64,000 nucleotides of DNA from Diabrotica undecimpunctata (Eukaryota > Arthropoda > Insecta > Coleoptera > Chrysomelidae), in NCBI RefSeq assembly GCF_040954645.1, contig NC_092809.1, positions 80,463,435-80,527,434 on the forward strand. The letters are read 5' to 3'. The notes under the pieces were generated by a model. The model was not told the DNA's origin. It was given only the letters and a program-made list of their open reading frames with translations, and made no database searches. Of the stretch, positions 4,061 to 64,000 are shown in pieces. Position 1 is the first letter of the stretch, and every line of letters begins with the position of its first letter. The translations under genes were made by a program, and so were the position numbers.

Positions 4061-4199
4061 ATAATTTTATAAAGGATATGTTTATAGAATTTTAAATAAA
4101 ACTATTGCCTTTTTAATTTTCACAGGTTGACTTCCTTTTCCTTCTGAAAAATATTATACACCATAATAAACATAATACATCAATCATTAATCTTTACCT

Positions 4200-5209: not shown

Positions 5210-5211
<2 letters not shown>
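4451..5211. other. AT-rich non-coding stretch
   Basis: No recognisable coding segment on either strand. The sequence is AT-rich with scattered short A runs. Nothing else supported. Confidence 0.55.

Positions 5212-5260
<49 letters not shown>
5212..5260. repeat. (TA)n microsatellite
   Basis: Uninterrupted alternating T and A for about 49 bp. It is the first of seven (TA)n tracts in the window. Several of the others adjoin insertions of TA-targeting elements. Confidence 0.95.
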
Positions 5261-5263
<3 letters not shown>

Positions 5264-7740: not shown

Positions 7741-7935
7741 GAGATATATAAAAGTTTTTTCAATAAATTATCATCACAAAGCATTCAATTTGCGTTTTTT
7801 CACGATTTATAAAAAAATTGTTCTGGTAGCGCTGATTTATCCTCAACTACTACAGCCGACCAGTAGGAGGTTCGGTACCACAAAGCAGGTAGAAAAGGGA
7901 AAGTATAACAGAGTGGCTGTGTAGTGGCTGAGAGC

Positions 7936-9690: not shown

Positions 9691-9799
9691 AGAAGCTATT
9701 AGTATGAGAGGGTCTTTGGAAAAGTTCCGGGTCGAAGCTGCCCCCCTAAGGCCGACCCGTTCTAGTTTTCCTGTTGGTGAGTTTTTTGATTTGCGTCGT

Positions 9800-11049
9800 A
9801 CCTAGGGTGCTTACATGAACTTCGTACGTGTCCTATTTCGCCACAATTCCAGCATCTTATGGTCTTCGTTTTCTTGTATGTCATGCTTTTCATCATATTA
9901 ACGAGCTGGTCAAGTTTATCTTCATCTCCTTCCTCTTTTATAGTCCTAACTTTACTGTACCCGCCAGAGGCCTGCGTAGCTGACTCGTATTCGAGGGCGG
10001 CTGCATTTCATGATCACGAAGACCATCAATAAACGTTTGAACAGCCAATATTTCCATCATGTCTTCGGGAGCTGTTGGATAAGCATATCGTACTAATCTG
10101 GCAATATCTACCTCATATTCTTGAAGAGCCTCATCTTTCTTCTGTCTTCGATTTTTAAGCTGCGACTGATATACATGCTCCAAATGTTCGTGACCATGTC
10201 GCATATTTAACCTCTTCTTAAGTTGTTCGAAATCATCCGTCTCCTCTACGGCTATGGTCTGAAGCACATCTAAGGCATCTCCTCGAAGAGCGATAGTCAG
10301 GTTTACAGTCTTTTCGTTTTCAGACCATCCAGTCGCTCTTGTGGCTGATTCGAACTGTTTCATGTGGTTGTTCCATGATGATTTTCCGTCGAAAGTTGGG
10401 ACTTTAACATGAACAGAACCTCCACTTCCTTCAAATTTCGGCCGCGTTTCCAACTTACATTTCGTCTCGTCTTCTTTTATCTCTACTGTAATTGGATTGT
10501 TTCCTCTCTCTGCCGCCCTTGTTCCCTCCATCTTCCTTTCCATCTCTTTCCATATCTTTTCTTCGAAGGCCAACATATCGGCAGCAACTTGATTTTTTAA
10601 CGAAGACATTCTATCGTCGAGGGCAGACATCTCAGAAGTGACTTTAGAGATTTCCAAAGAGATGTTAGCAGAAACTTTGCTTTTCAAAGAAGAAATCTCG
10701 TTAGAAACTTTGTTTTCTACTGAAGGGATGTCGCCGGAAACTTTCGAAATATCGCTAGAAACTTTGTTTTCTAATGAAGCGATATCGCCAGAATCTTTCG
10801 AAATATCGCCAGAAACTTTGTTTTCTAATGATGCGATGTCACCAGAAACTTTGGCCACATCAGAAGAAACTTTCGAAATCGACGAGATGACAGCATCTTC
10901 AAATATATGTTTCCGGGTCAAAACCCTCTTTCCTCCAAAGCGTTATTTAGTCATTGGACTAACTTAGCCTTTTTTCCGGTAGAAACTAATTCTCTATCCT
11001 CGAGATGTCTTCTTAAATTCGTAACTGTGAGCTCATAAATCGTAGTCAT
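9800..11049 (-). pseudogene. Ty3/gypsy gag with SAP-like start, coiled coil and zinc knuckle, broken
   Basis: The likely start is the ATG at 11049-11047. The first residues (MTTIYELTVTNLRRHLEDRE, then STGKKAKLVQ) resemble a SAP DNA-binding motif. An in-frame TGA follows where an arginine would be expected. A frameshift near 10921 leads into a 327-codon frame (10921-9938). That frame opens with repeats of the type KVSGDIASLENKVS (about 10880-10690), which have heptad-like spacing, so a coiled coil is likely. It continues with a retroviral-type gag core (FDGKSSWNNHMKQFE, then ALRGDALDVLQ). A CCHC zinc knuckle (C-W-N-C-G-E-I-G-H-V-R-S-S-C) lies at 9854-9813 in another frame. The parts are in the order expected for one gag protein that binds element RNA in the particle. 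The gene is inactivated by one stop and at least two frameshifts. Confidence 0.75.
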
Positions 11050-14982: not shown

Positions 14983-15322
14983 CAAAATATCGCAGCTTTA
15001 CATTTGAAGGAAGGGAAAGAGATCTGGAATAAGTACAGGTGATCCAGAGATAAAAACATATAACATTGAGGGAATTTGAAAGTATTTTGACAATTTTTCC
15101 AGAGAATATAAATTTGATTTATTGATTGATCGTAGTTAGTGGATATTTACTGCTATTGAATTATTTGATTTTATTTTCTTTACCAATCATACATTTGATA
15201 TTTATTTTGAATTATTTGAATTTTACTGATTGCATATTTGATATTTGTCGTGAAAATTTAATACATTTGGGGAGAAATATTGTCGTGTTCTGAAACATAT
15301 AGAGTGTTGTAAAATTTCACAT
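14983..15322 (+). other. untranslated leader of the gypsy element
   Basis: About 340 bases between the primer-binding site and gag with no open frame of note; this is the usual position of the packaging leader. It ends in TTTGGCGGGGAC, a short word that recurs in similar form before protease (16873) and before the 3' LTR (20313). Confidence 0.5.
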
Positions 15323-16809
15323 TTGGCGGGGACAAAAACAGTAACGAAAAGAAACAACATGTCGACCACAAGGAGTCAAAGCAAAATGCAGGAAAGGAAG
15401 GAGGATAACAGAGAAGAGGAAACAATTGTTGAAGAAGGATCGGATAATGAAGGAAATGTTACAATAGTTGAGGAAAAAAAAGAATTATCAGGAATAGAGA
15501 AATTATTAGCAATGATGCAAATACAGACACAAACAATGAATGAAACATCACTAAAAATGGATAGAAATCAACAAGAAACAAAACAAACAATGGCAGAAAC
15601 AAAACAAACAATGAGCAATATAGAGCAGCGTCTGGAAAACTATGAACAGGAAATTAGAGGATGTGTTGAGGGGATAAAGAAAGAACTGATACAACAAATA
15701 GAAGAGATTAATGAAATTAAAAATGATATGAAAGAACAAGAAATGAGAATTAAAGATAATTTGGAGGAATTAGAAAGCAAACTTGAAAATGTAATGAAAG
15801 ATAGTAAGACGGTCCAGAAAAAGGAATTAGAACAGTTAGAAGAAAAATTTGAAATGGCGCTACAAGAAGACAGGAAGGAAGTAGAAAGAAGATTAAAGCA
15901 AAATGAAAAACAAATGGCAGAAATTGAACTAAGAGGGGTAGAGAGAAAAGAAGTTATCATCCATGGAACAAGCGAGGCGAAAATACAGTTTGGCGGGGAT
16001 ATTCGGAAAACACACCCAGTACCGTTTGTTAAAAATTTGAAAACCAAATTACAACATATTAGATATTTTGACGATTGCAAAGAAACAATTAGAAACCATT
16101 TGAAAGAAGGAGCAGCGTTATGGTATGAAAGCAAGGAAGATGAGTTTGAAAATTGGACAGATTTTGAAAATAAATTTCTCAACTATTTCTGGGGGAAAAA
16201 TAAACAGAGAGAAATCAACCAAGAGCTACAGAATGGAAAATATCACGAAAAAATGGGAATATCTGAAGAAAGATATGCTTTGCAGATATATAACAATTCA
16301 AAATATCTAGAATACAAATATTCTACCGAACAGCTGGTAGAAATGATCAGCAGACATTTTGAGGAAACGTTGGAAGATCACGTGATTTTGAGAAACTATC
16401 AAGATATTGATAGTTTGTGCCAATTCTTCAATTAAAAGAAGCGAAAAGAAAAGAAATGAGAAATAGAAGACAACATGACCAATATAATGGACCAGAAAGA
16501 AGGTATTCATCAAATTATGACCAGAGAAACCGACATCCCAGATCAACAAACGAATATAGGCCGAGAAATTACAATAATTACAATAGACAACAAAATTACG
16601 ATAACCGGAATGATACACAAAATAGAACAAATGAAAATCACAACAGGAATAGAGATGCACAAAATCCTCCGAATAGGAATACGAACGAACAAAGGGACGA
16701 TAGAAATAATCAGAGATTCCAACGACAAAACAGAAGAGAGATGAATCATGTAGCAATAGAAAAAGAGGAAGAAGAAGTATTCAATGAATCCAGACAGGAT
16801 TTTCAATAA
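15323..16809 (+). pseudogene. gag of the gypsy element (one frameshift)
   Basis: The first frame (15323-16435) encodes about 370 residues. It begins with a charged N-terminus, then a long Glu/Lys/Gln-rich coiled coil (about residues 50-210), including a direct repeat of the type KQTMAETKQTM. A gag capsid-like core follows: FVKNLKTKLQHIRYFDDCKE, ALWYESKEDEFENWTDFENK, ISEERYALQIYN. A one-base deletion near 16425 moves the frame. The continuation (to 16809) is rich in Arg, Asn and Gln, as a nucleocapsid would be, but has no CCHC knuckle. A more likely natural start is the ATG at 15359 (MSTTRSQSK), because the first codons sit in the GGCGGGGAC word. The stop at 16807 lies 4 bases after a possible -1 slip site. 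Confidence 0.8.
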
Positions 16810-17417
16810 GGCATCCACTAAACAAAAGTAAAAAACTCTCCGGTATATTTTGTCACCCGAGAGAGTTTATACAGTTGGCGGGAAACGAAAAACAAAATTC
16901 TAATTCCAGTCTAATTTTTTTAGATGCATTTATAAAACATAAAGCGATTAAAATTCTGATTGATTCTGGATCGGAAATTTCGTTAATCAATAAAAAACTA
17001 GTAAAAGAATTAAATATGGACAGATTTGTGTATAAGATTCCGAGGGTGGCTTTAGTGGGTGCAAATAATAAAAAATTGACGACAGTAAACGAAGGTTTAG
17101 GAGTACGGATCAGAGTGGGAGACCAATTCTATATTATGCAATGTGTGGTGATCGAAGATCTAAATCATGATATGATAGCGGGAATTGATGAATTGAGTGA
17201 AAAACATATCACCATCAATTTTTCGGAAAATCAACTGGAAATCAGAGCAGAACCAGACAACATAGAAGAAGAAAAGGAAACAGACAGGAGAAAATTTTCT
17301 GAAAGGATAAATGGACAAGAAAAACATAAAGAAATCAATATGACGGTAGAGGATAAATCGAAAGCTCAAGAAAAAAATCAATCCGAAGAGGAAAAGAGAA
17401 TAAAAAAAAAAGAATAA
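16788..17417 (+). CDS. aspartic protease of the gypsy element
   Basis: The frame is open from 16788; its first methionine-type start is at 16875, giving 180 residues. The retropepsin active site reads IKILIDSGSEISLI, with the catalytic D-S-G near residue 31. A second strand-rich part, MIAGIDELSEKHITI, follows. The protein would cut the Gag and Pol polyproteins inside the particle. It has no good start signal of its own, so expression as a Gag-Pro fusion by -1 slippage is likely. The C-terminal third is a highly charged Glu/Lys linker ending in a run of ten A residues at 17402-17411, where the pol frame begins in a different phase. Length is typical for a protease plus linker. Confidence 0.8.
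   Translation: MQTGFSIRHPLNKSKKLSGIFCHPREFIQLAGNEKQNSNSSLIFLDAFIKHKAIKILIDSGSEISLINKKLVKELNMDRFVYKIPRVALVGANNKKLTTVNEGLGVRIRVGDQFYIMQCVVIEDLNHDMIAGIDELSEKHITINFSENQLEIRAEPDNIEEEKETDRRKFSERINGQEKHKEINMTVEDKSKAQEKNQSEEEKRIKKKE
16797..16868 (+). promoter_or_regulatory. candidate -1 frameshift signal between gag and protease
   Basis: Gag ends TAA at 16807-16809. The protease frame is the -1 frame and is open from 16788, a 22-base overlap. In the overlap the gag codons read G GAT TTT (16797-16803), a heptamer of the kind used for -1 slippage. A stem follows at 16833-16843 with 16857-16868: AAACTCTC pairs with GAGAGTTT, then CGG with CCG around one bulged A. The roughly 29-base gap from heptamer to stem is longer than usual. 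A second heptamer, A AAA AAC (16830-16836), is also in the gag phase but lies beyond two gag stops. Confidence 0.35.
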
Positions 17418-20228
17418 GAGTTCGAAAAGAAAGCAGGAAAAAAAGGAAGTTATAAGCAGAAAAATGGAAGGAGCCGAAAAATGGTGCTCGGAATACCAGA
17501 TAGAAATTAAAGATAAAGAAAAAATAGAAGAAGAAATAACGGAAGAGGACAGAGAAGAAATGGCAATTATGGACGAGAATCCAGAATTTTGTGAAGAAGT
17601 AATACGGACAGTGAACACATGTGAACAAACTGAGGATGAAAGAAAAATAATGTGTGGAGAAAACATGGAGAAGGAAATAGAGAAGATTTTAGAAAATTAT
17701 GGAGATCTTATTAATGAAGAAAGCCGAGTGGCTAAAAATTATGAACATTCTTTTAAAGTTAAAAACTTAGAAAATTTTAAATCGAAAACATATCCAATCC
17801 CGTATAAATACAGGCAAAGCGTCGGACAGGAAATTGAAAATATGATCAAAGACAAGGTGATCGAAAGATGTGACTCTCCATATATCAACCCGATAGTATG
17901 CGTAAAAAAATCAAATGGTGATTTGCGATTATGTTTAGATGCAAGAAACATTAATTCGCACACAATCGCACAATACGAAGCGCCTTTGAACATAGAAGCC
18001 ATTTTTGGACGAATCACAGGATCACACATTTTCTCCAAAATCGATTTGAAACACAGTTTTTGGTTAATACCTTTGGCAGAAAAGTGTCGAAATTATACCG
18101 CTTTTTCTATCGACGGAGTGGTGTACCGATTTAGGGTAGTACCATTTGGACTACAAAGTGCATGCGCTGCTTTGGTTCGCGCATTACACACAATTTTAAA
18201 TAGGCATGGAGAATTTGTTGTACATTACATAGATGATTTATTAATTTTCTCACCGGATATAACAAGCCATCTACGACATATTCATACTGTTCTCGAAGAA
18301 CTTGATCAAGCCGGATTAAAATTAAATATTCAAAAGTGTCAGTTTTTCCAAAAAGAGGTATTGTATTTAGGATTCAAATTAGACACAAAAGGGATTAGTC
18401 TTGCAGAAGATAGAATCGAAGTCATAAACAACTACCCTAGGCCAACCAATTTAAAAACTTTGCGGGGATTTTTAGGAATGGTAAACTATTTCAAAAAGCT
18501 GATACCAGACCTCAGTACAAAAGAAATACCGCTAATAGCATTACTTAAGAAAAATGTCAGATGGAAATGGGGAACGGAACAAGAAATCGCTTTCAAACAT
18601 TTAAAAGGAGCGTTTTTCACAGCTGTAAGAGTGCACCACCCAAGATATGAGCAACCTTTCATTCTCAGGACCGATGCTTCCATAAAAAAATTTGCAGGGG
18701 TGTTATCACAGATACAAGACGATATAGAGGTGCCAATATGTTTTGTTTCCCGTGTAACCAAAACGTATGAGAGAAAATACAGCGTTACTGAATTAGAGTT
18801 TGCCAGTGTGTTATTTTGTGTAAACAAATTACGTTTTTACCTACTTGGGGCAAGATTCACCATTGAAACGGACCACGCAGCGTTGATACACATAATGAAA
18901 AATAGGTTGGTAAATAATAGAATTCATAGGGGCATTCTTTTACTCCAAGAATATGATTTTGAATTTAAATATATCAAAGGAACGGACAATATTTTGGCTG
19001 ATGCGTTGACGAGAGATAAACAATTCCGCAAAGAGGATCACAAAACTCTCCACGTAGGCATGAACATAATGAGAGAAGAAGCAGGCTTATTTTCGTTGGC
19101 CAAAATCAGGGAAAATCAGGAAGAATTGAATGAAAGAGAAAAGCAAAGGGCTGAACAAGAAAATAACCTATATTTTAAGAGGGTCGATGGTAAAGAACTC
19201 TATGTAATCACGGAGCAAATGGCAAAAGAAGTTTTTTTAAAGTTACACTGTGACAACGGACATATTGGAAGTAGAAAGGTGTGGCTTATGTTCAGGGAGA
19301 ACTACATTTGTCGACAGGACTATACAATAGCCAAAGAGGTGACTCGAAATTGTGTGACATGCCAAAAGTGTAAAAGTAGGAACTTTAAAAATGAAAACGT
19401 CACAAAAAACGTCGTAGCTCGGAAGAAACTGGATATTGTTGCTATTGATATGTTGAGCGATTTGATACCAACAACTCAAAGGAATAAACACATATTAGTT
19501 ATGGTGGACCTTTTCTCAAAATATGTTAAATTGTACGCATGCAGAACCACAAAAGGAATTGAAATACTTAGGAAGATAGACAATTTTATAGAAACGGTGG
19601 GAAGACCAGACAATATTTTATTGGACAATGCGACATATTTTAGGAACGAACGTTTTAAAAGGGAATTAAGAGAGAGGGGCATCGATACAAAATTTATAAG
19701 CATCCGTCATCCACAGAGCAACCCATCGGAGCGTTTTATACAAGAAGTCACAAATTTCTACGAATTGCCGCGGAAGAACATCATCGACATTGGGACAGAA
19801 AAGTGTTTGAGATCGAGACCTATTTGAATTGTGCTCCAAATACGGTTACCAAAGAGACGCCTTTATATATAATGAAAGGAACAATGCCTACAAGACCGTG
19901 GGAAGACACCGCCCCCAGACAATACGAAGAAGTGATCGAGTTGGTTCAAAGAAGATTGAGACGAAGTGGAGAGAAATATCTCCAAAGACAAGAGAGAACC
20001 CGAAGAAGAAGGCCGATCAAATTCCAGAAAGGAGATAAAGTCTTAGTGAAGGCACTGAGGGTGTCGAATTTACAAAATGATATTTGTGCTAAATTGATGC
20101 CGATATTTGAAGGTCCATATAGGGTCAATACGGAAAATGGGGTAAATAGTTATGAATTAGCGCACATAGAGACAGGAAATATACGGGGTATTTTTAACAT
20201 TCACGACATCTATCAATATCATGAATAG
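17404..20228 (+). pseudogene. pol (RT-RNase H-integrase) of the gypsy element, one frameshift
   Basis: The pol frame opens at 17404 inside the A10 run and overlaps the end of protease by 14 bases. The first ATG is 17464. Order: a charged linker; RT with VIERCDSPYINPIV, LDARNINSHT, FSKIDLKHSFW and the YIDD site at 18226-18237; RNase H with RTDASIKKFAGVLSQ, TELEFASV and TDHAALIH; integrase with an H-H-C-C zinc part (HCDNGHIG, CVTCQKC) and a catalytic core (AIDMLSD, LLDNATYF, HPQSNPSERFIQEV). A one-base frameshift near 19757 interrupts the integrase after the catalytic glutamate. The C-terminal part resumes in another frame (about 19760-20228) with LNCAPNTVTKETP and a basic tail with KFQKGDKVLVKA. 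All catalytic residues are visible. Confidence 0.88.
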
Positions 20229-36330: not shown

Positions 36331-37715
36331 ATGGATCACCAACTAGATAACCAAGAACCAACTAGCTACCAATGCATTGAGGACATAAATCCAGCCATTA
36401 GAAAATCCTGCCTAGCCCGCACTCCTCCACCTGGAAGAAATCGAAAAGACAGTTACAACTCTCTAGATGAACAGTAGAAAAAATCTAAAATACGCAACAT
36501 CGATCTACAAACAAAATTATCAAACTTTCAAATAGAGAAACCACAAAAAAAATCTCACAGATGCAGAAGAGGTAAAAAGTGGTAGTGAATGGGTATCAGT
36601 CCACCACAAGAAACGTCAACGCAACGATGATAGTCCTGAATTGAAAAACACCAAACAAGCTACACTCAAAGATTATTGGCTAAGTAAAACTGTTCTTACA
36701 TCTAACAGATACGAGGCACTTGAAAATGATAAATCTAATGAAGAGGATGAAATGCTGGAAGAAAAAAAAGATGAACAGCCACCACCTATATTTATCCAAA
36801 ATGTTGAGTGTATCAAACCACTACAGGAATTACTACAGCAGATAACTCCAGGTAAATATACTTTAAAATGTCTTGCTAACAACCAAATTAAAGTTCAAGC
36901 TGACTCATCCAAAAACTATTCATTAATTGTAAAATCTTTAGCAGAAAAAAATACTCAGTACCATACATACCAACTGAAACAAAACCGTGGATTCCGAGTT
37001 GTTATACGTAATTTACATCCTTCAACAGATCCAGATGACATTAAAAAAGCGTTGCTAGCGCACGGACATACAGCACTGAACATCTCCAACATTAAGCAAA
37101 GAGGCACAAAGAAAGATCTGCCACTATTTAATATAGAACTGGCTATTCAAAGTAACAATAAAGATATATATGATATTACAAAATTACTAAACTCTATTGT
37201 CACAGTTGAGCCACCGCATCCGAAAAGGGAACTACCCCAATGTCAAAGATGTCAAAATTTTGGCCACACCCACAATTATTGCCACAGGAGTCCGCGCTGT
37301 GTAAAATGTGTGGGCGATCACCTATCATCTCAAAACACCATAACCAAAAAATATAAAAGATGTTCAATGTGTAAATTGTCTAGAAAATCATCCTGCCAGC
37401 TATAAGGGATGCTCAATATACAAAGAGCTACAGAAAAAAAAATTTCCAACACTTAGAGATAAAAACGCAAGTCAACCACCTCGTGCAGAATTTCCTTCAA
37501 ACACTCAACCAACTACAAGCTATGCGAAAATTGTTGCAGGAAGAGATAATAGAAATACATCTACCATAGATGAGACTTCTCATATAATAGAAACAACAAC
37601 TCCTCAACATATACAAAATAATCTAGAACTACTTGTACATAAGTTAATGGAAAGAATGGATAAGATGTTTGATCTCATAATTTCTCTGATATCTAAGCTT
37701 AACCTTCAACACTAA
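36331..37715 (+). pseudogene. jockey ORF1 (gag-like, PRE_C2HC and zinc knuckle), broken
   Basis: The likely start is ATG 36331 (MDHQLDNQEPTSYQ). A TAG stop lies at 36475 and a frameshift near 36550. The main frame (about 36560-37340) contains TLKDYWLSKT, SNRYEAL, a region like the PRE_C2HC domain (RGFRVVIRNLHPSTD, DIKKALLAHGH, LFNIELA), and then zinc-knuckle cysteines (CQRCQNFGHTHNYC, RCVKCVGDH). A second frameshift near 37350 displaces the last knuckle (CVNCLENHPASYKGC) and the C-terminal helix, which ends at TAA 37713-37715. The protein normally coats the element RNA. ORF2 starts 7 bases later. Confidence 0.82.
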
Positions 37716-37722
37716 ACTAAAG

Positions 37723-40359
37723 ATGTGCTGTTGGAATGCCAATGGTTTAACCTCTCATTTCCACGAAGTTAAAGCATTTATTTACTATCATAATCTAGAT
37801 GTTATGTTTATTTCCGAAGCACACATGACTGATAAGAGCCATTTCCATATTCTAAAATATTCAACCTATGTAACTCAACATCCATTAGGTAAAGCCCACG
37901 GAGGTACGGCAATTATTATAAGAAATAACATTAAGCATCATGAAACAAATAAAATTAGTAAAGTTAACATCCAAACCACATCAGTGTCGGTCGAAGATTC
38001 ACAAGGCTCGATTATTCTATCTGCTGTTTACTGTCCACCGAATAAAATAATTAAAGCTGATCATTTTACTGAATACTTTAAGATGCTAGGACACCGTTTC
38101 ATTTCTGCTGGAGATTATAATGCCAAACATCATAAATGGAGTTCCAGAATCGTAACCTCACGTGGACGAGAATTATTAAAAAGTATTAATGAGAATCATT
38201 TAATTCCTTTCTCTACTGGAGAGCCTACGTATTGGCCTACTGATAGACAAAAAATTCCTGATCTTATTGATTTTGCTATAGTAAAAGGAATATCACATAC
38301 TTACCTCCAAATTTCTCCTTCATTTGACCTCTCATCAGATCATTCCCCTTTCTTCATAGATCTACAAAGCCAAATTCATAACTGTTCTAAACATTTAACA
38401 CTCTCTAATAAAAGAACAAACTGGAACAGATATAGAGAAGAAATAAAAACATCCATCAATCTAAACTTGCCTCTTAAAAGTGATAGTGATATAGAAAACG
38501 CAGTTGCTCACTTAACTACAGTTATTCAGCAAGCTGCTTGGACGTCCACCCCAGAAATTTATTACAAACACAATTCCGAGTCCTATCCTGCACACATAAA
38601 TACACTCATATTGGAAAAAAGAAAACTGCGAAAGATATGGCAGCTCACTAGGCATCCAGAAGATAAAACAAATCTGAATAGAGCTTGCAGACTACTCAAA
38701 AGAAAACTGATACTGAACAAATATTTAAAGAACCTCTCACCTGCAGATGATACAAACTATTCGCTGTGGAAACTAACAAAAAAACTTAAACACAACGAAC
38801 AAATGAATATGCCAATCAGGAAACAAAATGGCACTTGGGCTAAAACTGACATAGATAAAGCATATACTTTTGCAAATCATCTATGCGAGGTATTTCAACC
38901 GCATCAGAGGGAAGTCTCAGTTGAAGAAGAACAAGCTATCCATGAAGTCGTAAATGCACCATATCAAATGGCTCCACCTATTAAACCTGTTAAGAAATCT
39001 GAAATCAAAGAAATAATTGATAATCTGGAAATTAAAAAGTCACCTGGATATGACTTAATATCTAGTTTAGTACTAAAAAATCTACCCAACGAAGGCGTAA
39101 GTTTAATTACTTATATATTTAATTCAATATTAAAAACAGGTTATTTTCCACTCCAATGGAAAGTTGCTCAAATTGTTCTGATTCCAAAACCTAATAAGGA
39201 TCACACGGAAGTATCTTCATACCGTCCTATTAGCTTGTTGCCTATTATATCTAAAGTATTTGAACGGCTTTTTCTGAGAAGACTGGAGCTTATTTTATAT
39301 GACAGTAATGTTTTACCGAATTATCAGTTTGGGTTTAGGAAACAACATGATACTATCGAACAAATTCATAGGGTGGTAAAGACTATCAGAAATTCGCTTG
39401 AACAAAAAAATTACTGTACTGCTGCATTTCTAGATGTCTCTCAAGCATTCGACAAAGTTTGGCATGTAGGTCTTATCTCCAAAATTAAATCTATATTTCC
39501 TCATCCCATAAGTTCACTTTTAAGATCCTACCTGACAGATCGATTCTTTCAAGTCAAAAGAGGTGGGGAAATCACTAACCTGTTTCCAATTTGTTCCGGA
39601 GTTCCACAAGGAAGCATACTAGGACCCACCCTCTACTTAATATTCACATCAGATCTCCCAACGACGACCAATACAACAATCGCTACATATGCCGATGACA
39701 CAGTTATCATGGCTTCAAATTCTACAGCAACTGAAGCAGCCCAGGTATTACAAAATCACCTACTTAAACTAGAGAGCTGGCTTAAGCTGTGGCGAGTCCA
39801 AGTTAACAGTTTAAAATCAACACAAATAACGTTTACTTTAAAAAAAGGTGTCGCGCCACCAGTTTCTATAAACAACACTCCACTACCAGTTAATAACGTC
39901 GTTAAATACTTAGGAATCCATTTGGATAGCAAACTTAATTGGGGCATCCACATCTGGAAGAAACGCCTTCAACTCAGCTTAATCTACAGGAAAATGTATT
40001 GGTACATGAGTCGAAAATCAAATCTTAGCCTGGAGAACAAACTTCTGATATATAAATGTATTTTAAAACCGGTATGGCAATATGCAGCACAAATCTGGGG
40101 TACAGCAAGTAATACCAACATACAAAAACTTCAACGTTTCCAATCGAAAGTACTGCGCCAGATCTGTAATGCCCCTTGGTATATCACGAACCACAGATTA
40201 CATCACGATTTACAGCTACAAACAGTTTGCGAAGCAATATCTGCTGTAAACTCTGTATACAAGAACAGACTATCCTGCCATCCAAATCCGCTGGCCACGG
40301 ATCTGCTCAACATTTCACACGTAAGAAGATTAAAACGACCAGACCCTTTGGACCTCTAG
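37723..40359 (+). CDS. jockey ORF2: endonuclease-reverse transcriptase, open
   Basis: An uninterrupted 878-codon frame. The N-terminal apurinic-like endonuclease (residues 1 to about 215) begins almost at the start with CCWNANGLTSH. It has the E of FISEAH, the D-x-N of SAGDYNAKHHKW, DLIDFAI and the SSDHSPFF end. The RT (about residues 430-700) has KKSPGYDLISS, YRPISLLPIISKVFE, YQFGFRK, AAFLDVSQAFDKVWH, SGVPQGSILGP and the catalytic YADDTVI. The C-terminal domain follows, with WQYAAQIWGTAS. It ends with LKRPDPLDL. No RNase H domain is present, as usual for jockey. The intact frame suggests a recent insertion. A functional ORF1 would still be lacking. Confidence 0.93.
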   Translation: MCCWNANGLTSHFHEVKAFIYYHNLDVMFISEAHMTDKSHFHILKYSTYVTQHPLGKAHGGTAIIIRNNIKHHETNKISKVNIQTTSVSVEDSQGSIILSAVYCPPNKIIKADHFTEYFKMLGHRFISAGDYNAKHHKWSSRIVTSRGRELLKSINENHLIPFSTGEPTYWPTDRQKIPDLIDFAIVKGISHTYLQISPSFDLSSDHSPFFIDLQSQIHNCSKHLTLSNKRTNWNRYREEIKTSINLNLPLKSDSDIENAVAHLTTVIQQAAWTSTPEIYYKHNSESYPAHINTLILEKRKLRKIWQLTRHPEDKTNLNRACRLLKRKLILNKYLKNLSPADDTNYSLWKLTKKLKHNEQMNMPIRKQNGTWAKTDIDKAYTFANHLCEVFQPHQREVSVEEEQAIHEVVNAPYQMAPPIKPVKKSEIKEIIDNLEIKKSPGYDLISSLVLKNLPNEGVSLITYIFNSILKTGYFPLQWKVAQIVLIPKPNKDHTEVSSYRPISLLPIISKVFERLFLRRLELILYDSNVLPNYQFGFRKQHDTIEQIHRVVKTIRNSLEQKNYCTAAFLDVSQAFDKVWHVGLISKIKSIFPHPISSLLRSYLTDRFFQVKRGGEITNLFPICSGVPQGSILGPTLYLIFTSDLPTTTNTTIATYADDTVIMASNSTATEAAQVLQNHLLKLESWLKLWRVQVNSLKSTQITFTLKKGVAPPVSINNTPLPVNNVVKYLGIHLDSKLNWGIHIWKKRLQLSLIYRKMYWYMSRKSNLSLENKLLIYKCILKPVWQYAAQIWGTASNTNIQKLQRFQSKVLRQICNAPWYITNHRLHHDLQLQTVCEAISAVNSVYKNRLSCHPNPLATDLLNISHVRRLKRPDPLDL

Positions 40360-53711: not shown

Positions 53712-55710
53712 TATTATATATTTAGGGATTTTACAGTATTCACTGCCTTCTCTCGCTCAACCGTTTTCATCTCTCTCTGTTGTTCCATTCTCCATCGTTT
53801 AGTCCTCTCTTACTCATGGCGTCGTCTACTTCGTTCCTCCAGGATTTTTGGGGTCGTCCTCTTTTCCTCCTTCCTATGGGGCTCCATTCGGTTATTCTCT
53901 TTATCCATCTGCTGTCGCTAGTTCTTCTTACATGTCCATACCACTTTAGTCTTTTTTGTTCTATATATGTTAGTATGTCTGTTTCTATTGATGTTCTTTG
54001 CTTTATTTCGTCATTACTTCTCCTATCCATTCTTGTTACTCTGCAGCATCTTCGCAGGCATTCCATCTCTGTTGCTACTATCTTACTGCTGTTTTTCTTG
54101 TTTATGATCCAATTTTCAGCCCCATATGTCATAATACTTCGCACTAATGTTTTATAAATCTGCGTTTTGTCTTCATATTTAGGTGTCTATCCCTCTATAC
54201 TGAGTTAAGTTGTCGGATTGCTGTTCTTGTTTGTCCTAATCTTTGTGTAATTTCTTCCTCTGTTGTTGCCTTTTTCGTGATTATAAACCCCAGGTATTTG
54301 AATTTATCCTTTCCTTTGATTGTTACTTTGTCATCAATCTGTAGATCTTCTATGTCTTCTTCACTTGTAGATAGGTACTCTGTTTTCGCGAGGTTAATAT
54401 CTAGGCCAGCCTTGGTATATTCTTCTTGTAGTTTCTTCATCATGTAGCTGAGGTCGTCTTGGTCTTGTGCAATCACTACTAGATCGTCTGCAAAACTTAA
54501 CGTATATAGGTATTCGTTCCGTACCGGTACTCCCATACCTTTACATTTTCTTTTCCATGTAGTCAAGGCTTTCTCTAAGTATATTTTGAATAGGGTTGGA
54601 GATGTGGAACAATCCTGCAGAGCCCTTTTGTTGTGGTGAAGTCTCCTATGATTCTTGTTCCCATTGTAATGGACACTTTATTTTCTTTATACAGAGCTTT
54701 TGTAGCTTCTATGAATTCCGTCTGTATTTCTAATTTGTACATTGCCTCCCATAGTTCTGACCTTGGTACAGAGTCATACGCCTTTCTCAGGTCCACAAAT
54801 GCCAAGTGTATATCTCTATTTTTTGCTTTTGGCTTTTCCAACAGTTGTTTCAGTGTGTATATGTGGTCTATGCATGATCTTCCTGCCGTGAAGCCTGCCT
54901 GATCCTCCCCGATTTTGCCTTTTATCGCTTGCTCTATCTTTTCTCGCAGTATCTTCCCATATAATCTTCCTATTGATGATATTACGCTTATTCCTCTGTA
55001 GTTTTCGCATCGTTTTCTATCTCCTTTCTTAAATATAGATGTCATATATGCCGCCGTCCATTCCTTTGGTAGCTGTTCTCCATTTATGGCTTTCTGAAAT
55101 ATCCACTGTATCATCCGGTGTAATTTTTTTGATCCGTATTTTATAAGCTCAGGTGAGATGCCTCCAGGTCCCGGTGCTTTCTTATTTTTGATTGCTTTTA
55201 TGGCCGTTCTCATTTCCCTATCTGTTATTTCTATTTCTTGTTGTGGGAATCTGCTTCGTCTTCGCCTGTTTTCTTTTCCAATGAATTGTGGTCTTTGTTC
55301 TGTTAATAGTTCCTTGTAGTAGTCCTTCCATTCTTTGTCCTGTATATTTCCCAATTTAATTTTTTCTTTTGAGTTTTGTTTCAATCCTCTCAGTACTTCC
55401 CATGACTCCGAAGTTCTTGTACCTCCTATATATGTTTCAATATTTAAGCAGATTCTTTCCCATTCTTCATTCTTTTGCTGTGTTATTTGTTTTTTCACTT
55501 CTCTATCTTTTTCTCTATATTCTTTATAAACTTCATCGTTGTTTGTAGTCAGCCATTTTCTGTATAGTTGCTTTTTTTCTTGAATTATGCTTTTTGTTGG
55601 TTCATTTATTTCATAATAGTGCTGTTTATTTGTTATATGTTCTTTTTCCCCAAGGGCTTCGAATGCTGCTTGCTTTATACTCGCCTTTATATGCTCGTAT
55701 ATTTCTTTAA
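53712..55710 (-). mobile_element. 5'-truncated RTE-like LINE, 2.0 kb, 13-bp target duplication
   Basis: AAAAAATTTGATA stands at 53699-53711 and 55711-55723. The minus strand between them is a LINE RT with a single main frame break near 54570. Frame 55498-54575 has KKAPGPGGISPELIKYGSKK, NYRGISVISSIGRLYGKI, EDQAGFTAGRSCIDHIYTL and AFVDLRKAYDSVPRSELW. Frame 54566-54195 has LSFADDLVVIAQDQDDLSYM and KYLGFIITK. Frame 54144-53767 has MRSIMTYGAENWI, EMECLRRCCRVTRMDRR, LKWYGHVRR and KRGRPQKSWRNEVD. The catalytic F-A-D-D is intact. The short AT-rich 3' tail lies at 53712. The surrounding older LINE frame rejoins exactly across it. Confidence 0.93.
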
Positions 55711-56044
55711 AAAAAATTTGATACCGAAGTAATAAAGGAAGACAATGTAATAAATGAAGGCAAAGAAAACATAGAGCTAGAGCAAATTAGTAGAAAAGAA
55801 GTAATAGAAGGCTTATAAAACATAAAAATAGGCAAGGCAGGTGGAGAGGATGAAATTGAACGAAAATGGTAAAATACACGGGAGAAGAAGGAATAAACTG
55901 GCTATGGAAACTATATAAAGAGACGCGGGAAAAAACAAACAATCCCTAAAGACTGACTGAACAACATCATCGTGCCAATATACAAAAAAGGAGAAACTGT
56001 AAACTGTGACCACATGGAGCAATATATCTGTCATCAGTATATAT
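55711..56044 (+). pseudogene. decayed LINE, second half (RT start), continuing from 53711
   Basis: Continues the older LINE: FDTEVIKEDNVINEGKENIE, then RKEVIEGL, a stop, IKIGKAGGEDEIE, INWLWKLYKET and NNIIVPIYKKGETVNC. These are the first RT blocks. The segment 55830-56040 is present again at 58335-58540. Similarity ends at the centre of the perfect palindrome at 56044/56045. Confidence 0.75.
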
Positions 56045-56289: not shown

Positions 56290-58340
56290 CTATGGAAAAT
56301 AAAATCTAGTTCCACATTTATAGTAATATAATTTATTGAACCTAAACCCAAGAAAAACTAAGCATTTTTTTGCTTTCAGTAATGAATTTGGTGACCCTAT
56401 CGCATTGCTTCCCTTAATTAATCTTTTGTCTATCACTTTTTCTTCTTTTCCCGTGTTCGTTATGGTTACTCCTAAGTATTCAAATTTTGACACTTTTTCA
56501 AAACTATAGACAGTCTCTGTTCCTTTTATTTTGATATATTTGTTATTATTTGTTATGTCTCCTCTCATTTCCATATATTGCGTTTTTGTTTGGTTTATTA
56601 TCAATTCATATCTTTTCGCTTCTTCTTCAAATTTCTGGAAAATATTTTCTAAATGTTTTTTGTTTTTACTAGTTCTCTCACCACATCATCCGCGTACTGT
56701 AAAATCCGTAAAATAGTCCTGTTTGTGCCCATATTTGATCTTCTTACGATTGGTTCTAATACTAGGTTGAATAAATTCGTTGATAGCGGATCTTCTTGTT
56801 TTAAACCTCTATTCACTGTGAACCGTCTTGAAAAGCTTCATTTCATTGTTACCCTATTCATCGTGTTTCTAAGCGTCATTCTCACTAGCCTTATAAGCTT
56901 TTCTTGTATTTCTAATGTTCTCATATACATGTTGAGTCATATACTTGTTTAAAATCGGTAAATAGCATATGTAATCCTTGTTTTGTTCCTATTATTTTGT
57001 GTTAATTTTAACATACTTATTTGATCAGTAGTTGTTCTTCCTGATATAAAACCTCCCTGGTATTCTCCAAACACTTTTTTATCATATTTTATTAAATCTT
57101 TTCCTACTAATTTCTGCAAGTATTTTATAGACTACTTCTAATAGTGTTATACCTCCATAGTTTTCGCTCTCCTTTTTGTCTCCTTTTTTATAGATAGGAA
57201 AAATAAGAGCGGTATTCCATTATTTCGGCATTTCTTCGTTTTGCCGAATTATTAGTGTCAAGTGAAATATCCTTTCCTTCAATCTTCCTTAAAAATCTCA
57301 GCTGGGATACCACTTTCTCCTGCATCTTTGTTATTTTTTTGGTGTCTTATTATTTCGTTGACTTCATTCAGAGTTGGTTCCTCGCACGTTCCTTCTTCAT
57401 CTTCCAATTGCCAATTTTCATATTTCTCAAGTTCCTCTTGTTGGTCTGTATTTAATATATCTTCGAAATATTCCGCCCATCTGTTTATTGTTCTGTTGTT
57501 TCATCTAGAAATAAGCCTTCTTTGTTTCTGCAATACTGTGGATTATTCTTTGTAGTTTCTCTGGATTTCTTAAATTCTTGGTAGAAATTATTTACCTCTT
57601 TCTTTGTGTAGGCTTCTTCTATGTTTTTCAATTGCTTTTCTAGCTGTTCTTTTTTCATTTTGCCACATAGTTTTCGATCGCATTTTGGGTATTTTCTTTA
57701 TCTGTTTGTAGTTTTACCCTGTTTCTTCTTGCCAAAACATTCCTACATTCTCCATCGAACCAGTCTTGCCGTCGTTTTATATGCTCTCTTCCTATACACT
57801 TTTCCGCTGCTTCCGATATGGCTGTCTGTATGGACTGTCACTCTTCATCTATATCCTGTTTGACTGGATTCTCTAGTTTTTTATTTATTTCTTCCTCTAG
57901 TCTGTTTACAACCTGCTTTTCTCGAAGGCGCTCTAATTGGTAATTTATTCTTTTTCTAACAGGTTTTAGTATTATTGGTAGTTTTTGTTTTAGTTTTACT
58001 ATTATTAGTGTATGGTGTTCCTTCGGCTAATTCTCAACGGTAAAATCGAAGGAAAGAAATGGATAGGACGGAAGAAACTCTCTTGGTTGAGGAATTTGCG
58101 GCAGTGGACAGGTTTGACAGCGGACCAATTGCTACACATAGCGCAAGACCGAGATCAGTATAACAATATTATAAGCATGGTAGTCGCCGACGTTCCGTAG
58201 GGATATGGCACTCTAAGAAGAAGTGTATGGTCACTGTTGGTATCTGCCCCTCTGTAACTCCTGCAATCGATTATTACCTTATCATGTTTGCTTCCAATTA
58301 GGACATAATCTATCTGATTTTTTATTTGGGCAAGTTATGT
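56290..58340 (-). pseudogene. decayed LINE (end of endonuclease and RT), minus strand
   Basis: The minus strand shows, in many broken frames, the end of an endonuclease (KNQIDYVLIGSKHDKVIIDC with SDH, about 58340-58235), a linker (RRQDWFDGECRNVLARRNRV near 57780), and RT blocks. The RT blocks are GIPAEIFKED near 57300, IYKKGDKKESENYGGITLL near 57180, GGFISGRTTTDQISML near 57055, GLKQEDPLSTNLFN near 56790, the YADDV catalytic site near 56695, and KTQYMEMRGD and FEYLGVTITNTGKEEKVIDK near 56560-56440. It differs from the plus-strand LINE around it. A 205-bp LINE tail is inserted at 58017-58221. Confidence 0.72.
58017..58221 (+). mobile_element. 5'-truncated LINE 3' end, 205 bp, 10-bp target duplication
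   Basis: AGTGTATGGT stands at 58007-58016 and 58222-58231. The insert encodes LILNGKIEGKKWIGRKKLSW, LRQWTGLTADQLLHIAQDRD and the end of an RT tail, then GGGATATGGCACTCTAAGAA and an AAG tail. It is related in style to the 263-bp insert at 52007. Confidence 0.9.
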
Positions 58341-59246: not shown

Positions 59247-59318
<72 letters not shown>

Positions 59319-59320
59319 TA
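59247..59320. repeat. (TA)n microsatellite
   Basis: About 68 bp of (TA)n, ending at the TA duplication of the Tc1-like transposon. Confidence 0.9.
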
Positions 59321-60735
59321 CTCAGTGACATTAGAAGTGTTACACATAGAAGGAATAATTTCTTGAACTTAATTTTTTGGCAACATGGTAGATTTACATC
59401 AAGAATGAAACGATAACGTTGTCAAGAATATTTAATAACAAGTAATCAAAAAAAAATTAATAATGTCTTTGGCGACCCCGTAGCTGAATACACTCCTGTA
59501 TACGTCTAGGCATTGACAAAATGGGATGATCGACGTCTGCCTGTCGCTCCTCGTTCCAAGCAACTTAAACTTCATGTATTAACTGTGCCAGAGTCTGTGG
59601 AAGATGGTACAAAGTGGACAGTCTCCTTCATATCATATCCCATACATGTTCGATAGGATTCAAAATATCGATAGGATAGGCCACGGCAAAACATTAGCTC
59701 CAGCTTCTTGGAGAAAGTCCATAGTTTGACGAGCAATATGGGGACGCGCGTTGTCTTGCTGAAAAAGGACGTCTCGACGGCCGTCGAGATAAGGCAGTAA
59801 AGTGTTTTGTAAGATGTCATCAACACAACGCGCAGCTGTCATATTGCATCGAATAAACACAGGTAGTGATGGGCTACCATAGGCAATAGCCCCCCAAACC
59901 ATTACTTCAACTGTTCTGTGTACATGCCTCTCAACAGCAAACCCGATATTCCGTCGCTCTCCACGGTGGCGTCTTACCATCCTACGACCATCATGCATTC
60001 CTAAACAGAATCGTGATTCATCGCTGAATGCTACATTTCGCCATTCTGTCACCCAATGCTGCCATTCTCTGCACCAATTCAAACGTTGATGACAGTGGTC
60101 CGCAGTGAAAGGAACCACTAGTCGTGGACGGAATTAAACCAGTCAAAAGGCTCGAATATGACGGTATAGTCTACGCATTTTAACAGGTCTACCTACTACT
60201 TCAAACCATTGGTCAGCAATTTGACGCGTAGTAGCAAAACGGTCTCCCAGGGCCAGTAATCTAAAGCGCCTATCTTGACGCTTTGTGGTACGCCTCTTTT
60301 AACCAGTTGATCTTCTTTGTGTTCCTCTACCTTCGTTTGTCCACACACGACAGACACGCATAACCGTCATTGCCGTACAATTAACGCGACGGTCAATTTC
60401 GCGATTAGACAAACACATATCTCTATACGCAATAATTCTTCCCTGTCAAAATCGCTAACATGGTGGTAATTTTACCGTCTTAGAACTCGAAGCATTTTTT
60501 TTACACTGAATACAATTAGACTGAGGAATAATAACTAAAAATTTCTATAAGAACCGGTTTTTACAAATCGGTCTCTTCAGAAAAAAATAAGATAAAACTT
60601 TTTTTTACAAAAAGTAGAAAAGATAAAACATTGGTATTGTTATCATAGCATGTTTTAAATATAGTCATTCTGTTGCCAAAAAATTAAGTTCAAGAGATTA
60701 TTCCTTATGGGTGTAACACATCTAATGTCACTGAG
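59321..60735 (-). mobile_element. Tc1-like DNA transposon (1.4 kb) with inverted ends and TA duplication
   Basis: Starts CTCAGTGACATTAGAAGTGT and ends with its inverted counterpart (ACATCTAATGTCACTGAG), with TA on both sides (59319-59320, 60736-60737). The similarity of the ends runs about 65 bp inward, through CTTGAACTTAATTTTTTGGC, with a handful of mismatches. It encloses a broken minus-strand transposase. Length, TA target and end structure are all typical of Tc1 elements. Confidence 0.92.
59470..60480 (-). pseudogene. Tc1-like (DD34E-type) transposase, broken
   Basis: The main minus-strand frame (60118-59660) contains RLNWCREWQHWVTEWRNVAF followed by SDESRF (first catalytic D), VMVWGAIAYGSPS, VDDILQNTLLPYLDG and VLFQQDNARPHIARQT (second catalytic D). 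A frameshift near 59665 separates these from NPIEHVWDMI (catalytic E), and an in-frame TGA follows. The rest reads LSTLYHLPQTLAQL and HPILSMPRRIQECIQLRGRQ, the usual Tc1 end. The N-terminal DNA-binding part (60480-60120) is only partly readable and contains stops. All three catalytic residues can still be seen, but the gene cannot be expressed whole. Confidence 0.85.
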
Positions 60736-60877
60736 TATATAAAAATAAATATATAAATACGGGAGGCAAATAAATATGTCTAGACATAGATAAACTGAGC
60801 AACATTTATTGTTACTTACTGGAAAAACATCCAAAATAAAATTAATATCTACCTGTACCCACACAAATTACACTTAT

Positions 60878-60909
60878 ACTGCCGTGTTAACTCAAAAGGG
60901 CGTAACTGC
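60878..60909 (+). repeat. left terminal inverted repeat
   Basis: ACTGCCGTGTTAACTC, then AAAAGGGCGTAACTGC. It pairs with 63969-64000, with one A/T mismatch at the 28th base. Confidence 0.9.
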
Positions 60910-60986
60910 AACTTTTATTAAAAACGAGTTTCATATCCCACGCGTTATTTAGTACTCTTTTCTACAAATCTACCTGGGTTTCATAA

Positions 60987-61128
60987 CCGTATCTGCAATA
61001 AAACCGGATATATACTGCTTAAATTAATAGCCGTATCTGAATTTTCTACTAAAATGTTAGCTTTAAAAGCCGCAACTGTAAATGTTAACACAAAAAGCCG
61101 TAACTAAAAAGTTTTCGGCAGATACGGC
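60987..61128 (+). repeat. subterminal repeats of the TIR transposon
   Basis: Variants of G/A-CCGTATCTG occur at 60987-60996 (CCGTATCTGC), 61031-61039 (CCGTATCTG), 61070-61079 (CCGCAACTGT), 61098-61105 (CCGTAACT), and inverted at 61118-61128 (GCAGATACGGC). The same word is part of each terminal repeat (GCGTAACTGC left, GCGTATCTGC right) and recurs at 63797-63805. Such arrays are commonly transposase binding sites; that role is inferred. Confidence 0.7.
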
Positions 61129-61151
61129 CTATTCTGTTCTTCATAATAAAT

Positions 61152-63563
61152 ATGGATAGTAATTTTGCAGAAACAACTAGTAAGTATATTTTCTACTAAT
61201 TTATATAAAAGGCTAAACAAATACAAATTGTTACCTTGTACCTATGTGTCAAGGTAAATATTTTTGGTTCTGAAGTTATTGTAAATTGATTATCTTGAAA
61301 ATAAGGTTATGTCACTTTGGTTTTCACACCAAATAGGTATTTATATTATGTATATTCTGTTAAAAACTATAAAAATAATTATTGCTTTGTCAAATTACTT
61401 GATGAAAACATTTGTTTCAGCAGAATTTAGAGGACGAGGTAAAATGTTGGTGGACCTGGCTTTAAATTCCACAGAAACAAATAAGGAGCTGTTGAATATA
61501 GCTCAGTCAGATATTGAATCTGACGTGTCTGATGACAGAGATAGAGACTATCTTCCTTCAACATCTACCTCAAGTGAAGAATTTTGGGACAGAGATAATA
61601 ACATTAGCGACCAAAATATACATATTATTAGCAATATCCTATTACAACCTACTTCAACAACGAGCTCATCAGCTATTTCGGAATTAAATTTAAACAACTT
61701 ATTGACAGATACGGAAGAACATCGTACTACCAATATTTATAACTATTTTAATAATTTAATTTACAGTATTATACAAAGCGCAATAGACAAATCAGAGAGC
61801 AAAAAATATACTAAAAAGGGACAGTTAAGAAAACGGAAAAAGATAGAAGAAAGTTTAAGTGAACGGCGTTCAATAAAAATGCAAAAGTTAGTCAATAAAC
61901 ACAAAATATCTGGAAGCTGTTTGGCTACTTGCAAGAAAAATTGCAGTAATAAAGTTTCAACTCTTCGACGGCAAGATATAAATAGGCAGTTTTGGAATCT
62001 TTCCTCCGAGGAACAGAAAGTGTTTTATTCAAGTTCCATTTTAAAGATTCCCAAAAAAAGATGCGCAACTAGAAATTCAGATAGTTCTCGGCGCTCTTTT
62101 ACATTTATCTATCAGTTAAAAGATGAAGAAGGAATACCTCAAAATATTTGTAAAGTATTTTATCTGACAACTTTAGGACATCATGAAAAAAATGATAAGC
62201 CAGTTAGAACAGCCCAATTATCGCTTAAACCTAACAAAGATAAACGAGGAGGCAGCTTAAAAAAATTTAACAGAGATTTAATCATTAGTCATATACAGTC
62301 CTTCAACCCTACGACATCGCATTATAGACGAGCACATGCTCCGAACCGTTTATACTTGCCTAGCGACATAACTATAAAACTAATGTATGAATCATTTAAA
62401 GCAAAGTACAGTATTCAATGTTCGTATTATTTATATCGTCAAATCGTTAGTGAGCTTAATATTTCATTTGCAAAGCTTGGAAACGAAGAGTGTTTCACTT
62501 GTGAAAAATACGAAATTCATACAAAAGAAAGCTCACACGTGTTAGATGACGGTCTAGTTTGTCCTGAATGCGAAACATATAAAAATCATCGAGAAAAATT
62601 TATAAAGGCCCGAGAGATGTACAACGCTGATTCCAGATCGTCGGGCGATTCTAGAGTTTATACAGCTGATCTGCAGAAGGTATGAATTTTATTTTAAATA
62701 ATATCTGTTATATTTGATCTTACACAATCTTTTTGTAGGTGATTATGCTCCCAAGATGCGATACTTTCAAAGAAATTATATTTACTCCCAGACTGATAGC
62801 CTTTAATGAGAGCTTTGTTCCAGTTGGTACTTCTAAAACTTCTACAGTTGCTGTTCTATGGCATGAAGCTATTTCTGGACGAAAAAAGGCGGATATTGTT
62901 AGCACATTTTATGCATTTTTAAACAAAATTAGGGATTCCGAAGAAGTTGTTATTTGGCTGGATAATTGTTCCGGTCAGAACAAAAATTGGTGCTTGTACA
63001 CATTTTTTGTGTATGCTGTAAACTCATTAGAATTGAACATTAGGAAAATAACTCTAAGATATTTTGAGTCAGGTCATACATTTATGGCAGCTGACTCATT
63101 TCACCATAGAGTCGAGCAATCACTAAATCGACAAGGTAAAGTTTATGACTTCGTTGATTTTGTAAATGCGGTTAAAACGTCAACACGTAATGTCGAAGTT
63201 ATCGACATGGCTTTTAATGATTTTTACAACTGGAAAGACGAATCATCTCAATATAAAATAACAAGGTTGGTCCCTCGTCCGTACCTTCAACAAATGGTGG
63301 AAGTTCAGTTCATGAGAGGTTTCCATACATTAGATTATAAAACTAGTTTTGAAGGAGAAGTCATAAGTGCCAATTTTTTAAAGGCTAATATCCAAAAAAA
63401 TGGCATTGCAAAACCACTCTCTATCTCTCAACCAAGAGGTATTACAATGGAAAGAAAACAGAATATAATCACTAAAATTGGTCAAATAATGCCCCCAAAT
63501 CGCATTACATTTTGGAAAAATATTTTTGTCAGCGAAAATGTGGACACAATAATTGATGATTAA
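61152..63563 (+). CDS. putative DDE/D-type transposase (DUF7869-like), three exons
   Basis: Model: exon 1 61152-61179 (ATG, ends in GTAAGT donor), exon 2 61421-62679 (acceptor TTTGTTTCAG), exon 3 62739-63563 (acceptor TTTTTGTAG). The joined frame is exactly 2112 bases, 703 residues. Exon 2 also reads open upstream to 61309, so exon 1 is an inference. N-terminus: acidic, Ser-rich, then a Lys/Arg-rich patch. Cys176, 180 and 184 form a C-x3-C-x3-C cluster. KVFYLTTLG is near residue 280. A C-x2-C...C-x2-C pair sits at 367/370 and 390/393, probably zinc-binding. Catalytic candidates are Asp426 in ADLQK, Asp504 in WLDNCSGQNKNW, and Asp548 or Glu555 in GHTFMAADSFHHRVE. The DLQ, D-N-C-S-G-Q-N and G-H-T blocks are the signature of a widespread uncharacterised family (from memory, DUF7869). 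The fold assignment is inference. Confidence 0.75.
62680..62738 (+). other. 59-bp intron (intron 2)
   Basis: GTATGA donor at 62680 and TTTTTGTAG acceptor ending at 62738. Without splicing, a TGA directly after GTA ends exon 2. Splicing joins DLQK to VIMLPR in phase 0, restoring the conserved block that spans the junction. Confidence 0.85.
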
Positions 63564-63725
63564 TATAATATAATAACTAGTTCGGAGTAGAAAATTAAGT
63601 ATTAATTATTTATATTTGTTTGACTGAGTATGATATTTTATTTAGTCTGTATTCTTGCTTACTTTTTTAACTTTTCCTAATTATTAAGAATAACTTACGA
63701 AATTGTAACGTTCATTTGTTTAATG

Positions 63726-63731
63726 CAATAA
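63726..63731 (+). terminator. possible polyadenylation signal of the transposase gene
   Basis: AATAAA at about 63728 in GCAATAAATATTTTC, 165 bases after the stop codon. It is the best placed candidate in the 3' region. Confidence 0.4.
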
Positions 63732-63968
63732 ATATTTTCAAAAAATCATGTAGTTACGTTCTTAATTATATAAGTACCTCATGTTAAGTGAAAAAGGCGT
63801 ATCTGTCAAAAGTGTTGTTTTCCCAAGTTGATACTCTACCAAAATCTGTCACATGATAGTATAAACCTATTTGTTAACTTCTATATGGTACAAGTCACAA
63901 ATTTTTAAAAAATCACGATTGCCTAATCAAAATCACTAAAACTGATTTTTCTCGCAAACTAGTTTAAA

Positions 63969-64000
63969 GCAGATACGCCCTTTTGAGTTAACACGGCAGT
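63969..64000 (-). repeat. right terminal inverted repeat
   Basis: Reads inverted as ACTGCCGTGTTAACTC and onward. It ends with the last base of the window. Confidence 0.9.

Follow-up and report, generated by a model that had tools for sequence, protein, structure and literature searches.

Sola transposons, as Bao and colleagues are said to have described them in 2009, carry a DDD triad, make 4-bp target duplications and range from bacteria to animals, reportedly in three groups that differ in their ends and target preferences. By one account, 20 superfamilies with a DDD/E transposase are distinguished in Repbase (PMC9587614, consulted in part). In the accessible part of a slime-mould study, Sola2-type elements are described with 4-bp AWWT duplications (ATAT, AAAT and ATTT), with ends of 12-21 bp and as carriers of Fanzor1 (PMC3627910); the Sola2 transposase of Dictyostelium fasciculatum is given there as 888 aa long. 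We analysed a window of 64,000 nucleotides, the whole stretch from position 80,463,435 to 80,527,434 of contig NC_092809.1 (forward strand) of Diabrotica undecimpunctata, in which a gene of the Pfam family DUF7869 lies between terminal inverted repeats (TIRs). Our results indicate that this unit is very probably an autonomous cut-and-paste transposon with the DUF7869 gene as its transposase, and that Sola is its most likely name. An earlier reading of the letters by themselves (the sequence-only reading) had proposed a transposon of this kind. What the present analysis adds to that reading is the size of the target duplication (4 bp), empty target sites, a DDD triad, two sister families in the host genome and relatives in bacteria.

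The element, its copies and its target sites

The element spans 60879..63999 on the forward strand (3,121 bp, CTGCCG...CGGCAG), its ends having been determined by comparing 37 loci and their 4-bp duplications. In a self-comparison of the window, 60878-60909 and 63969-64000 formed an inverted match of 32 bp at 97% identity, which agreed with the 32-bp ends proposed earlier. However, the outermost constant bases across the compared copies were CTGCCG...CGGCAG, and other copies carry different bases in place of A 60878 and T 64000; these two bases are therefore part of the target duplication, ends at 60878 and 64000 were rejected because both bases vary with the target, and the true inverted ends are 31 bp long (60879..60909 on the forward strand and 63969..63999 on the reverse strand). 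Allowing up to 2 mismatches, the first 24 bases of the TIR occurred 79 times in the genome, while the reversed control gave 0 occurrences; a TIR 27-mer occurred twice in the window, both times without a mismatch, with 0 expected from 100 shuffles. The left target duplication is TATA (60875..60878). On the right, where the duplication was to be read beyond 64000, the first T is readable at 64000 and the bases after it are N.

The host assembly that we searched comprises 1.74 Gb, and the window element matched 149 pieces of it; an estimate of 1.56 Gb by flow cytometry is given in the part of the source consulted (PMC8982398). We compared 37 loci with their flanks, the window's own included. Nine lacked one or both ends, the right flank of the window copy is N, and 27 had two ends and readable flanks, so that other copies are indeed bounded by the same ends. 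Perfect 4-bp target duplications were found at 23 of these 27 loci, whereas random pairing of flanks gave a mean of 3.1 and a maximum of 9 in 2,000 shuffles. Other sizes of duplication were rejected (3 bp, 0/27; 5 bp, 0/27; 6 bp, 1/27; 8 bp, 1/27). The duplicated bases were TATT (6), TATA (4), AATT, TATG, TACA and CATT (2 each) and AGTA, GATA, TAAT, TACT and AATA (once each); TATW thus made up 10/23, the second base was A in 22/23 and the third was T in 19/23. The loci that lacked a perfect duplication were L014, L016, L030 and L021; in the last, two ends lying 291 bp from each other had been wrongly paired.

To find unoccupied targets, we joined the two flanks of each site and searched the genome with the result for 21 of the 23; L010 was omitted, as was nearly all of L011 (an AT repeat). 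The site of L034 lies in a repeat family, in which 40 of 42 reported matches spanned the join at 97-99% identity; further matches are likely, since 40 of 13,932 candidates were scored. Four of these places (L076-L079) were compared in detail. One of the empty sites (L077) was identical letter for letter over 251/251 bp across the join, and two others (L078 and L079) matched the joined flanks at 281/282 positions without gaps; with longer flanks, L076, L078 and L079 matched at 97% with 3 gap openings. The empty target site of L043 was found within the window itself, in a repeat copy at 58017..58223 (forward strand), with 98.1% identity over 207 bp, gap-free, across the joined flanks. The site of L025 had gapped relatives at 81-87% and that of L045 a single gapped match at 80%, and the search of the genome with the remaining sites gave no empty-site match. 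Comparison of filled and empty sites indicated that insertion adds one unit and one additional copy of four bases. Inverted ends, a target duplication of constant length and empty sites, by which cut-and-paste TIR elements are recognised, were thus all found, and together with the open exons they bear out the view of a complete TIR element built around one gene.

A second copy, L010, was 99.90% identical to the window copy (3 differences in 3,121 positions), with exons 2 and 3 open, and L011 and L012 were 99.4% and 99.3% identical to it over aligned bases. In copies with more than 2,500 aligned bases, mismatches fell evenly on the three codon positions (277, 274 and 242), as expected for changes after insertion. 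The window element was probably active recently. Of the 14 long copies (L011-L024), 13 have a segment of 106 bp (126 bp in L021) before the start codon that is missing from the window copy (at 61134) and from L010, and this pair has the look of a young sublineage. In addition, one and the same stretch (query 414-1849) is missing from 19 copies, yet 15 of them have both ends and 14 of those 15 have perfect duplications. They are non-autonomous derivatives, which presumably were moved in trans.

The protein and its predicted fold

The gene consists of three exons on the forward strand: exon 1 with the start codon (61152..61179), which is inferred and has no support from homology; exon 2 (61421..62679), encoding an N-terminal region with conserved cysteines and histidines and the first aspartate of the triad, Asp426 (62668-62670); and exon 3 (62739..63563), encoding the DUF7869 domain with Asp504 (62961-62963), Asp548 (63093-63095) and Glu555 (63114-63116). 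The two long exons are open throughout, and the joined exons give a protein of 703 amino acids in which these four residues carry the numbers of the sequence-only reading, whose single spliced gene is thereby upheld. The splice of intron 2 is supported by the intron-less relatives P0003 and P0004, which continue across it (...DLQKVIMLPRCDTFKE...). Exon 3 matched Pfam DUF7869 (PF25273; E 4.9e-8, 33.2 bits against a curated cut-off of 26), which places the protein in the family to which it had been assigned earlier, and no known transposase family of Pfam matched either long exon. As a separate observation, the gene models P0001 and P0002 of Ignelater luminosus have a P-element-like RNase H N-domain (PF21787) ahead of DUF7869; they are probably two transposons fused by annotation.

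The proposed test by profile search and structure prediction gave, besides this DUF7869 match, a model of a relative that is RNase-H-like. In the structure model of a Photinus relative, the elements follow the RNase-H order, with a beta-beta-beta-alpha-beta-alpha-beta-alpha core. In the predicted structure of P0004, Asp426 lies on beta1, Asp505 after beta4 and Asp549 in the last helix. The 50 structural neighbours listed were all Mos1, IstA or retroviral integrases. The protein is thus predicted to have an RNase-H-like DDE/D fold with acidic residues in the DDD places. Among 226 aligned sequences, the three aspartates were kept in 224, 224 and 222, respectively. The column of Glu555 held E in 215/226, K in 4, Q in 2, N and S in 1 each and gaps in 3, and this position is a lysine in the bacterial relative L085 and an arginine or lysine in two families of the host genome described below (B and D). 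Because Glu555 is conserved less than Asp548 and is replaced in these relatives, it was rejected as the third catalytic residue, although it may have some role, since the position is still strongly conserved. Judged by conservation, the catalytic triad is Asp426, Asp504 and Asp548, that is, DDD; it is spaced as DD43D in the group of the window element and mostly as DD41D in another group. The three acidic blocks in RNase-H order that had been noted earlier therefore stand as to fold and order, with Asp548 in place of Glu555 as the third acid.

From these features we infer catalysis, end binding and present activity of the DUF7869 protein, as follows. Its Cys/His-rich N-terminal part, possibly with a helix-turn-helix, would bind DNA, and the RNase-H-like catalytic domain with Asp426, Asp504 and Asp548 would follow. 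The transposase would bind the inverted ends and the subterminal repeats, excise the element and insert it at an AT-rich target through joints staggered by 4 bp, which would give rise to the 4-bp duplication. Five subterminal sites resembling the TIR motif lie within 60986..61128, at 60986, 61030, 61069 and 61097 on the forward strand and at 61119 on the reverse strand, and a sixth lies at 63796. The motif GSCGTAWCTG, with one mismatch allowed, matched the window 11 times, where 3.6 matches were expected and the largest shuffle gave 9; 8 of the 11 lie in non-coding parts of the element, 1 in exon 2 and 2 elsewhere. These copies of the end motif are possible binding sites of the transposase.

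Related elements in the beetle genome, in bacteria and beside the element

A search of the host genome for DUF7869 gave 8,786 candidates at first look; the 150 that were scored all exceeded the cut-off. Thirty were taken as loci, and the ends of two more families found among these, A/C and B, were compared. Family A/C has the ends GAAGCGTGCATTTCC, with both ends at 13 loci and perfect 4-bp duplications at 11 of these 13 (ATTT 3, ATGT 3, AAAT 2, AAGT 1, ATAT 1, AATA 1). Family B, of 2,751 bp, has the ends GAATCGCAAACTGC; both ends were seen in 3 of 5 copies within the stretches compared, and the duplication was ATAT in all three. The ends of both families differ from those of the window family, and all three have 4-bp duplications. 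The A/C protein aligned with the profile of the window family over 503 columns (E 3.9e-38) with the three aspartates matched, and a fourth DUF7869 group (D) is also present. Relatives were met in other insects and in Hydra as well.

In prokaryotes, a genome scan yielded two relatives, one in Desulfocicer vacuolatum and one in Thiomargarita nelsonii, both DUF7869 by Pfam (E 2.7e-18 and 1.5e-21). The Thiomargarita gene is split across two reading frames; the Desulfocicer gene is 657 codons long, is enclosed by perfect inverted repeats of 43 nt and has one copy in its genome. Scanning the phylum with the Pfam model gave matches in 1 of 395 genomes, and scanning the order with a protein query gave matches in 11 of 389, several of them fragmentary. 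A protein search found 551 relatives; for 94 of the 120 listed, the longest contig was shorter than 3 kb, and few of the 120 had names ('hypothetical', once 'chaperonin'). The latter, P0248 of Candidatus Magnetoglobus, is a DUF7869 protein that looks misnamed in public records. NCBIfam had no name for any of 23 bacterial members. Inverted ends GGG...CCC were found at 5 of 8 bacterial loci (L085, where the element within inverted repeats occupies 3772-5895, L086, L092, L094 and L095), and none were seen at the other three (L093, L096 and L099). The bases outside GGG and CCC were AAAT/ATTT, ATTT/ATTT, ATTT/ATTT, AAAT/ATAT and AAAT/ATAT; 2 of the 5 pairs are perfect direct repeats, and AWWT fits 10 of 10 flanks against 4.1% of the tetramers there. 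The bacterial and animal profiles aligned over 505 columns (E 4.5e-22) with the three aspartates matched. Bacterial DUF7869 genes between inverted repeats are new in the present analysis, and the five loci with such ends appear to be an insertion-sequence (IS) group that NCBIfam leaves unnamed, with the same layout as the animal elements. DUF7869 enzymes would then also mobilise other elements of the host genome and, by the shared layout, bacterial insertion sequences. A viral, phage or plasmid home was rejected, as no relative was found in viral contigs, phages or plasmids at the sensitivity of the search; the TIR 20-mer had 0 matches in viral contigs.

Elsewhere in the window, a unit at 59297-60759, directly upstream of the DUF7869 element, was labelled Tc1/mariner-like by eye; it has inverted arms of 121 nt (79%) and TA-rich flanks. 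Long open frames, judged by eye to be of Gypsy or long interspersed nuclear element (LINE) type, lie at 7850-10942 and 54575-55786 on the reverse strand and at 15254-19827 and 36536-40359 on the forward strand.

Alternative explanations and known systems

The complete element, the fold, the copies, the empty sites, the two sister families and the five bacterial elements together make it most likely that DUF7869 is a transposase family, as had been proposed. Several points weigh against this reading or against its bacterial side. Foldseek by itself gave no significant match for the model, flank pairs are unequal in 3 of the 5 bacterial elements, and each bacterial element is single-copy. In addition, the AWWT signal could partly be end sequence, because the inverted repeat of L085 continues through AAAT/ATTT.

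The earlier proposal went further and implied a new superfamily; the transposase family stands, but its novelty is doubtful, as it probably already bears the name Sola, whose 4-bp AWWT duplications, in the excerpt consulted, and DDD triad are matched in part. A tentative alternative is that DUF7869 is a transposase superfamily unnamed by Repbase and ISfinder, comprising transposons of eukaryotes and, apart from them, an IS family of prokaryotes. No mention of DUF7869 was found in the literature searched, NCBIfam names 0 of the 23 bacterial members, and where the relatives listed bear a source name, it mostly reads 'uncharacterized', 'hypothetical', 'unnamed' or 'DUF7869 domain-containing', with 'chaperonin' occurring once. 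AWWT duplications are also few in the window family (2/23) and not general in A/C (6/11). More weakly, an aphid survey with Repbase/Dfam counted 508 Sola elements, 0 of them complete, in the part of the source seen (PMC9783078), and a DUF7869 cluster of another aphid, P0113, has 21 members. On the other hand, DDD, occurrence in bacteria and animals and 4-bp duplications that are partly AWWT (as given for Sola2 in the portion consulted of PMC3627910) fit the descriptions of Sola, and UniRef gives P0001 and P0002 the names 'Transposase' and 'Transposable element P transposase', through the joined P-element-like domain. If this possibility held, a large eukaryotic group and a prokaryotic IS family with GGG...CCC ends and AWWT flanks might together form one unregistered DDD superfamily; among its eukaryotic members, lineages like that of the window would have left AWWT for AT-centred sites, most commonly TATW.

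It is very unlikely that the DUF7869 protein is a passenger and that an enzyme of, for example, another superfamily moves the element. The deletion derivatives illustrate that the ends can move in trans, but DUF7869 is the sole gene seen in the element, it is common to three families of one genome whose ends are unrelated and to five bacterial elements, and its predicted fold is of the DDE/D integrase type. Domestication of the gene, with the inverted ends as old scars, would agree with the open exons but is extremely improbable given the even mismatches over codon positions, the near-identical second copy and the other copies with target duplications and empty sites.

With DUF7869 read as a transposase family, genes that are plentiful in this beetle genome and that Pfam lists without a function gain a likely one, which would let annotators mask them and would explain 'uncharacterized protein' models and fusions; if the superfamily were indeed unregistered, many of its genes sit in animal genomes as 'uncharacterized proteins'. 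The near-identical, apparently intact copies are candidates for the study of activity. The bacterial elements offer a prokaryotic counterpart of simple layout, useful for biochemistry whether Sola or not.

Among known systems, the third catalytic acid of retroviral integrases is Glu. The window element is unlike these integrases and IstA (IS21) in that its third acid, by conservation, is Asp and in its TIR transposon layout, and a PDB sequence search gave no match. Among the structural neighbours of the catalytic domain, Mos1 of Tc1/mariner, whose triad is DDD, ranked first. However, Tc1/mariner elements have 2-bp TA duplications, according to the part of the source consulted (PMC5199201), and no Pfam sequence match to them was found here. 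Kolobok and piggyBac share 4-bp duplications with the window element but are TTAA-specific in the account consulted in part (PMC9587614); they are disfavoured, as TTAA occurs in 0 of 23 perfect duplications and none of the known transposase models of Pfam matches the window protein. CMC and Transib are likewise disfavoured, since the C(2)C motif, as defined in the part of the source seen (PMC12730594), is missing; between Asp504 and Asp548 there are two cysteines six residues apart and a single histidine.

We consider it probable that the DUF7869 group is the Sola superfamily of Repbase (Sola1, Sola2 and Sola3), to which, and to Sola2 above all, it is likened by description, not by sequence. 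Points of difference are the CTGCCG ends of the window family and its AWWT duplications in 2/23, and the slime-mould Sola2 elements have 12-21 bp ends and Fanzor1, whereas 31-bp ends and one gene are found here. The AWWT of Sola2 is fitted by family B (3/3, ATAT), by A/C (6/11) and by the bacterial flanks (10/10), and the AT-rich 4-bp duplications (window family 23/27, B 3/3, A/C 11/13), the DDD triad and the range from bacteria to animals are all like those of Sola.
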